This document shows, piece by piece, positions 29,347 through 30,153 of a stretch of DNA of 64,000 bases. Below the pieces are notes generated by a model. That model did not search any database and had not been told where the DNA came from. It saw only the letters and a list, made by a program, of their open reading frames with translations. Source of the DNA: Acidobacteriota bacterium (lineage in GTDB: Bacteria > Acidobacteriota > Terriglobia > Acidiferrales > UBA7541). A program made the position numbers and the translations under genes. Numbering within the stretch: position 1 is the stretch's first letter; each line of letters opens with the position of its first letter. Location of the stretch: NCBI GenBank assembly GCA_003223215.1, contig QHYH01000100.1, positions 1 to 64,000 of the forward strand, read 5' to 3'.

Positions 29347-30153
29347 TTATACCTTGGTGGCTTTGGCGCGCGGCTTAGGGTGATCAGGGCGCGTGGTGCT
29401 CGGCTTCGATCGGGCCTTCTGGAATTTCATCGCGGCGCGCAAGAAGGCCAGCCAAAAGCGGTGCGGTGCTTCCGGCCGCGAGGAGAGCTGCGGCTGAAAC
29501 AAAGTGGCGATAAAGAAGCGATGGCCAGGCAGTTCGACGGCGCGAGTCTCGCCCTGGATGCCCCGCGCGCTTACGCGGAGTCCGGCCGCCTGGAATTGCT
29601 TTTCATATTCTTCGTTCACGCCGTAGTTGCAGTAGTACTGCTCGGAGTCATCTTCGCTTCCGCAAATAGCATGCAGGCGGGTCCCTGGCAGGATTTTCAA
29701 GCGTTCCTCACCCGAGGCTTTGGGACCTCCCTCGCGGCGATCGGGCAAGCTGCAGGAAAGCGGCGTGACCACGCAATGGGGCGAACCGGAATCGTTTTCT
29801 GCGCTGTCCGCGTCGGCAATCTTCAACACATTTCGCGCATACTCTAACAGAGTATATTGGAAGCCCCCTCAACTTCCCGTGAAGGGCCAGTCCTGGGTGC
29901 GGGCAAATTCGATGCCGCGGAGCATTCCCCTGAAGCTTTGGTAGGGGCTCCCAGGCGAGGCGATCAGCCCGTCCGAGAGGCCGAGGATTTTCCGAGCGCC
30001 GGGGCACGCGAGCGCAAGTGTCGGGATCCAGCGCACCAGGAGCGGCACATTCAGCTTTGCGGCCGCATCGTAGAGCGCGGCATTGGTTGCGAAGTGCGAA
30101 TGATAAGCCGGCTCGAAGTCTCCGATGACGCCGATGCGAACGGCATTGGGCAT
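29347..30153 (-). CDS. CTP synthase C-terminal region-related selenoprotein (class-I glutamine amidotransferase fold)
   Basis: One 268-residue gene read through an in-frame TGA at 29871-29869 (codon 95). The start ATG at 30153 has AGAGGT just upstream. Before the TGA the protein reads MPNAVRIGVIGDFEPAYHSH to QDWPFTGS; directly after it, in the same frame, GGFQYTLLEYARNVLKIADAD. The TGA therefore stands at the nucleophile Cys of the class-I amidotransferase motif G(S/T)CGGFQ. Twenty bases downstream is a hairpin with a six-base-pair stem and loop TGTTA, which fits bacterial SECIS rules. The second half is intact (FFIATLFQPQLSS, then HRFWLAFLRAA). NCBI recognises a family named CTP synthase C-terminal region-related (seleno)protein. 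The alternative is a nonsense mutation or sequencing error. Its reaction is unknown; it lacks the CTP synthase synthetase domain. Confidence 0.8.
29839..29871 (-). promoter_or_regulatory. Sec codon and SECIS-like hairpin
   Basis: TGA at 29871-29869 is followed on the minus strand, after 19 bases, by a loop TGTTA (29849-29845) closed by ATACTC (29855-29850) and GAGTAT (29844-29839); a further T-G pair can extend the stem. Bacterial SECIS elements need an apical loop about 16-37 bases after UGA with a G in the first two loop positions. Both conditions hold. Confidence 0.7.

Follow-up and report, generated by a model that had tools for sequence, protein, structure and literature searches.

The closest described system to the locus reported here is the family NF004836 (PRK06186), named CTP synthase C-terminal region-related (seleno)protein. 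In the main text of the 2025 deep-Sep study (PMC12013277), the family is given as selenocysteine (Sec)-containing, with a protein from Desulfosediminicola ganghwensis and TGA-containing homologues in other bacteria, and a table in a 2026 review (PMC13188914) includes NF004836 as Sec-containing with the motif GxUxG. The Sec form of the family is already in print. The words triad and histidine are absent from the main texts of both articles, and a literature search on the family, by name or by chemistry, returned no other discussion. For the CTP synthase (PyrG) of E. coli, the text of PMC9138612 names Cys379, His515 and Glu517 as the catalytic residues, and places Arg470 in the lining of the cleft between the glutaminase domain and GTP.

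Here we describe a gene within a window of 64,000 nucleotides, the whole stretch of DNA that was analysed, from a soil acidobacterium that encodes a predicted selenoprotein of this already catalogued kind. The protein matches NF004836 end to end and has GxUxG with Sec predicted at the same place as in the review table; compared with the Desulfosediminicola member in the main text of PMC12013277, it is an acidobacterial one, and the window gene is one more member of the family. The part not found in print is the residue pattern, consisting of the loss of the triad His and the presence of two invariant cysteines, Cys134 and Cys175.

Reading frame and family assignment

The gene occupies positions 29347–30153 of the minus strand (268 codons and a stop), as an ATG-started frame that is read through exactly one in-frame TGA, in the context FTGS-U-GGFQ. 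This TGA is codon 95 (29869–29871, minus strand) and is predicted to encode Sec at the nucleophile elbow. The original prediction, made from the DNA letters, had put a single in-frame TGA at 29871–29869 in the place of the nucleophile, and was borne out by the read-through translation and the family alignment. It had also taken the two flanks for one protein, and a profile search with NF004836 indeed matched the joined protein over both halves (227/228 positions, E 1.6e-76, 256.4 bits). This score falls 3.6 bits short of the model's curated cut-off (260), below which the nearest TGA and Cys relatives also score, and PyrG models score the joined protein far lower (130.6 and 122.4 bits). The family precedent cited with that prediction, under the name given above, agrees with both the match and the printed record. 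A whole-genome search with NF004836 of the assembly (8.8 Mb, 97.65% complete) recovered the same locus at 248.9 bits, with one TGA inside.

Two close relatives, L026 (same genus, 86% identical) and L043 (a Terriglobia record, 82% identical), have TGA at the same codon as the window gene, which makes a base-calling error very unlikely. Pairings among these three genes gave dN/dS values of 0.051, 0.042 and 0.048 on the 3' side of the TGA and 0.305, 0.122 and 0.136 on the 5' side; both L043 pairings give rough values, as their silent sites approach saturation (dS 1.1 to 2.0). In the same three genes, the remaining two frames 3' of the TGA contain 2 to 6 stops. The low dN/dS and the stops in the other frames indicate that the post-TGA half is selected as protein in this frame, where it is under strong purifying selection.

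Distribution of Sec and Cys in the family

A set of 96 members was assembled from 16 found by profile search and the best 80 of 566 relatives found by contig scan. In this set TGA occurs in 20 members, at position 95 only, and the other 76 have Cys there. The contig-scan patterns were biased towards Q, L or V in the place of the triad His and could miss His at 220. Because of this bias and the restriction to the best 80 of 566, samples from three more phyla were drawn with the profile alone (398, 398 and 396 genomes, centred on records of Acetivibrio, Pseudomonas and Nonomuraea, respectively); score and open-frame length separated family members from CTP synthases. These profile-only samples added 40 members, three of them with TGA. 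With the duplicates L078, L124, L138 and L162 left out, 132 distinct members remained, including the best 80 of 566 contig-scan relatives. A comparison of the TGA with Cys homologues had been proposed as a check on the prediction; in these 132 members the nucleophile column contains Cys in 109, TGA in 23, and no other residue.

The gene is sparse, being present in 4 of 89 genomes of its own taxonomic family and in 13 of 396 genomes of a phylum sample, from which two long-frame CTP synthases were set aside. A tree of 93 members and three CTP synthases (L078, L084 and L085 dropped) needs eight changes between Sec and Cys, of which at least three are forced by well-supported branches. The window gene joins L026 and L043 in one clade (100/99), which is nested in a 39-row group where 36 rows have Cys. 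Cys forms are present in named Bacillota, Pseudomonadota and Actinomycetota records, so the function is testable without selenium. One relative, L152 (G946), carries an in-frame TAG close to residue 33 of its match and may be a decayed copy or contain an error.

A SECIS-like hairpin follows the TGA

Bases +13 to +31 after the TGA (29838–29856, minus strand) form a SECIS-like hairpin with an 8-bp stem and the loop GTT, which starts at base +21. An alternative pairing has 6 bp and the loop TGTTA from +20 with G second, and corresponds to the hairpin of the original prediction. According to the rules set out in the review (PMC13188914, in the portion dealing with bacterial SECIS elements), the loop has 3–9 nt with G in one of its first two places, the stem has 4–16 bp, the spacing is 16–37 nt after the UGA, and the energy is -7.5 kcal/mol or lower. 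The window hairpin falls within these bounds as given there, the 47 bases after the TGA folding at -9.2 kcal/mol; the value is -7.9 kcal/mol in L026 and -7.4 kcal/mol in L043, the latter just missing the limit of -7.5. Folding of 86 bases is only mildly unusual, with a z of -2.2 that was matched by 4 of 200 shuffles. A search with Rfam gave no match in the window at gathering scores.

The hairpin was then compared between TGA and Cys members of the 96-member set, which includes the best 80 of 566 contig-scan relatives. Mean folding energy separates the two groups poorly (-12.65 for TGA members vs -10.89 for Cys members), and the signal above chance lies in the stem and its fixed place: at least seven of the eight stem pairs are present there in 13/20 TGA members vs 2/76 Cys members. 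A second stem type, from Rokubacteria, is complete in 5/20 vs 1/76, and one or the other type was found in 18/20 TGA vs 3/76 Cys members (Fisher p 1.7e-14, with kin treated as independent). The leucine codon within the stem is TTA in 9/20 TGA vs 1/75 Cys members and, where the stem residue is Leu, in 9/10 vs 1/17; in five other genes of the window, TTA makes up 4 of 231 Leu codons. Among the window gene, L026 and L043, at most one of the 19 hairpin bases differs, while the 407 bases beyond the hairpin differ at 60, 100 and 93 places.

Covariation in the first stem was little: across all 20 TGA rows a double change was seen in one of eight pairs, no better than in shuffles, which is partly due to the existence of the second stem type. 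One stem pair is A-U in nine, G-U in three and G-C in three of the 15 first-type rows (13 of the first 20 TGA members and two from the wider tally). The Rokubacteria TGA members L092, L095, L102, L107 and L115 have a stem with a 2-base bulge and the loop GTC at the same place.

Selenocysteine machinery

A search for selA, selB, selC and selD had been suggested together with the prediction, and all four were found over their cut-offs in the same genome: selA at 568 bits, selB at 354 bits, selC at 65.4 bits, identified by ARAGORN as tRNA-Sec with anticodon TCA, and selD at 351 bits. The selD gene (L022, G000:C89:13265-14227, minus strand) has an in-frame TGA of its own, and its product is thus probably a selenoprotein itself.

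The selB search took in 66 of 74 chosen genomes (20 with a TGA member and 46 with a Cys member), and detected selB over cut-off in 18/20 TGA genomes vs 26/46 Cys genomes, or 25/45 without one duplicate (Fisher p 0.0096). As to the two other TGA genomes, that of L066 contains only a selB fragment covering 182 positions, and that of L090, a genome bin of 2.5 Mb which may be incomplete, yielded nothing for selB at E 1e-50. The L090 gene itself has both the TGA and a perfect hairpin.

The Cys/TGA column, the purifying selection, the TGA-biased hairpin and the sel genes together support selenocysteine at codon 95. In the proposed process, SelB and tRNA-Sec would put Sec in at this UGA, and the hairpin at +13 to +31 would direct the insertion; from the combined evidence we regard this as very likely.

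Predicted fold and relation to CTP synthase

A model of the window protein was built with AlphaFold, using Cys in place of Sec and 55 sequences, with a mean pLDDT of 91.9. Residue 95 lies in the model between a strand (91–94) and a helix (96–108). Foldseek matched the model to the glutaminase domain of a CTP synthase (3nva, 5.3e-24), and a comparison with E. coli CTP synthase (8i9o) gave a Z of 34.3 and an rmsd of 1.9 over 237 residues. The window protein is therefore predicted to have the glutaminase-domain fold. PuuD (6vtv) and SpuA (7d4r), which are class-I amidotransferase-like, have the fold in common with it at a Z of about 22 and 17–21% identity. The Pfam GATase model scores 20.2 bits, below its cut-off of 22.8, and a PDB sequence search matched 25 sequences, every one named CTP synthase.

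The N-terminal synthase domain is absent from the window protein, whose 268 residues align only to positions 288–532 of the 534 of the PyrG model, and the genome's ordinary CTP synthase is at another locus, with an open frame of 580 residues. CTP synthase and the window protein have in common the fold, the position of the nucleophile, and the residues Gln99 and Glu119, at places which we take to contact glutamine in CTP synthase. They differ in that the window protein is without the synthase domain, has lost the triad His and Glu, and has gained Cys134, Cys175, His20 and Arg204.

Active-site and family-specific residues

In the family alignment, the His-x-Glu of the CTP synthase triad is replaced with Gln220-Pro221-Gln222 (29488–29496, minus strand) in the window protein, with Gln220 at the place of His515 and Gln222 at the place of Glu517; the Cys-His-Glu triad of class-I amidotransferases is thus absent. 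Among the 130 members covering the place of the His, Gln is found in 92, Val in 24, Leu in 13, Met in one and His in none, and the place of the Glu has Gln in 87 and Glu in 43 of 130. These and the following residue tallies, over 130–132 members, include the best 80 of 566 contig-scan relatives; members obtained by profile alone agree on the absence of the His (0/16 and 0/39). All 12 CTP synthases from the same searches (open frames of 496–902 residues) keep both the triad His and Glu. The original prediction had placed Sec at the nucleophile of a triad-type amidotransferase: Sec and its position stand, and the triad does not. It had also hedged that the chemistry may be redox or another transfer reaction, which is the better half of its interpretation.

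Four residues set the family apart from the 12 CTP synthases. Cys134 (codon at 29752–29754, minus strand) and Cys175 (29629–29631, minus strand) are invariant in 132/132 members, and are replaced in 12/12 CTP synthases with Glu and His, respectively. His20 (30094–30096, minus strand) is conserved in 126 of 130 covering members and is Tyr in 12/12 CTP synthases, while Arg204 (29542–29544, minus strand) is found in 130 of 131 covering members and is Glu in 12/12. Cys175 directly precedes the place of Arg470, and is separated from the place of the triad His by 45 residues, the same distance as in CTP synthase.

Proposed function and alternatives

We lean, by a modest degree, towards a stand-alone enzyme with the glutaminase fold of CTP synthase, whose selenol or thiol would take part in redox or transfer reactions. 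In the proposed mechanism, the selenol at the nucleophile elbow would act in redox or transfer on a small substrate. Cys134 and Cys175 are candidates for the resolving thiols, and Arg204 and His20 may serve in binding or activation. The substrate may still occupy part of the old glutamine pocket, as suggested by the retention of Gln99 and Glu119. The triad His is lost in Cys and Sec members alike, which argues against ordinary glutaminase chemistry, and the two new invariant cysteines, along with the repeated switching between Sec and Cys, argue for chemistry of the selenol or thiol itself, of which redox is probably the likelier form. Since the triad His is missing across the family, the protein is likely no longer an ordinary triad glutaminase; the loss of the His is observed, and the loss of activity would follow from it.

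The absence of the triad His combined with invariant Cys134 and Cys175, the reverse of what is found in CTP synthases, suggests from sequence that 'glutamine amidotransferase' is probably wrong as a function for this protein. Two points count the other way: the retained Gln99, Glu119 and fold would also be compatible with a ligand that still resembles glutamine, and the triad Glu is retained in a third of the covering members (43/130). We consider it about evenly balanced that an amidotransferase fold was converted here, by loss of the His, gain of Cys134 and Cys175 and interchange of Sec and Cys, into a three-chalcogen redox or transfer site spread over many phyla; if that is true, the label would misdescribe every member of the family. 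The domain, which is widespread and carries a glutaminase annotation, seems unable to use the usual triad and has three invariant S/Se residues, a pattern that is a warning against propagating the amidotransferase annotation. It also gives a selenoprotein that had no assigned function a hypothesis (redox, transfer or metal site) that can be tested at named residues.

An alternative is a selenol glutaminase, in which hydrolysis of glutamine or a related gamma-amide would pass through a selenoester, with a selenol whose low pKa would make the His base unnecessary. The retained nucleophile, Gln99, Glu119 and glutaminase-domain fold are consistent with such an enzyme, but 109 of the 132 members have Cys rather than Sec and are also without the His, and the gain of two invariant cysteines is left unexplained, so that we consider it unlikely. 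Just as unlikely, in our view, is a metal or metalloid site with residue 95, Cys134, Cys175 and perhaps His20 binding the metal and Sec as an occasional ligand; three invariant S/Se residues and a near-invariant His would suit this role, but residue 95 stays at the nucleophile-elbow place in the model. More doubtful still is a binding-only pseudo-enzyme, a sensor or regulator that would bind glutamine or a compound like it and use the selenol as a redox switch, which would fit a lost triad and a partly retained pocket, whereas three invariant S/Se residues and the repeated use of costly Sec suggest catalysis. Finally, it is highly improbable that there is no selenoprotein and that the locus is a pseudogene, an assembly error or two proteins meeting near the TGA: separate open reading frames do lie before the TGA (30225–29869) and after it (29829–29347, GTG start), but the TGA is common to L026, L043 and 20 more distinct members, the post-TGA dN/dS of 0.04–0.05, the hairpin and the Sec machinery all speak for one selenoprotein, and the GTG-started frame begins 13 codons past the TGA and would be without the nucleophile.

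Gene neighbourhood

The 94 nearest ORFs from 48 loci were listed and 81 were scanned with Pfam, revealing no conserved partner gene, with no Pfam family having more than four matches among these 81. The class IV aminotransferase gene ilvE lies upstream of the gene in the window and in L026, and neither of the two scanned neighbours of L043 is ilvE. An aquaporin-family gene lies downstream in the window on the same strand. A role in defence was considered and set aside, as PADLOC gave no match.

Among the Cys-type loci, an ORF of about 400 residues recurs about 1–2 kb upstream of the gene in 24 (including L044 and L045), all from records near the window gene's own group; the L044 copy matches Pfam GIDE. 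A divergent LysR-type gene was found just upstream of the Cys-type gene in L129, L134, L135, L139, L146 and L160, six of ten neighbours scanned, which gives no rate since the ten were picked from 73 partly for a length of about 300 residues. The divergent LysR-type regulator provides a lead to the inducer of the Cys-type gene.
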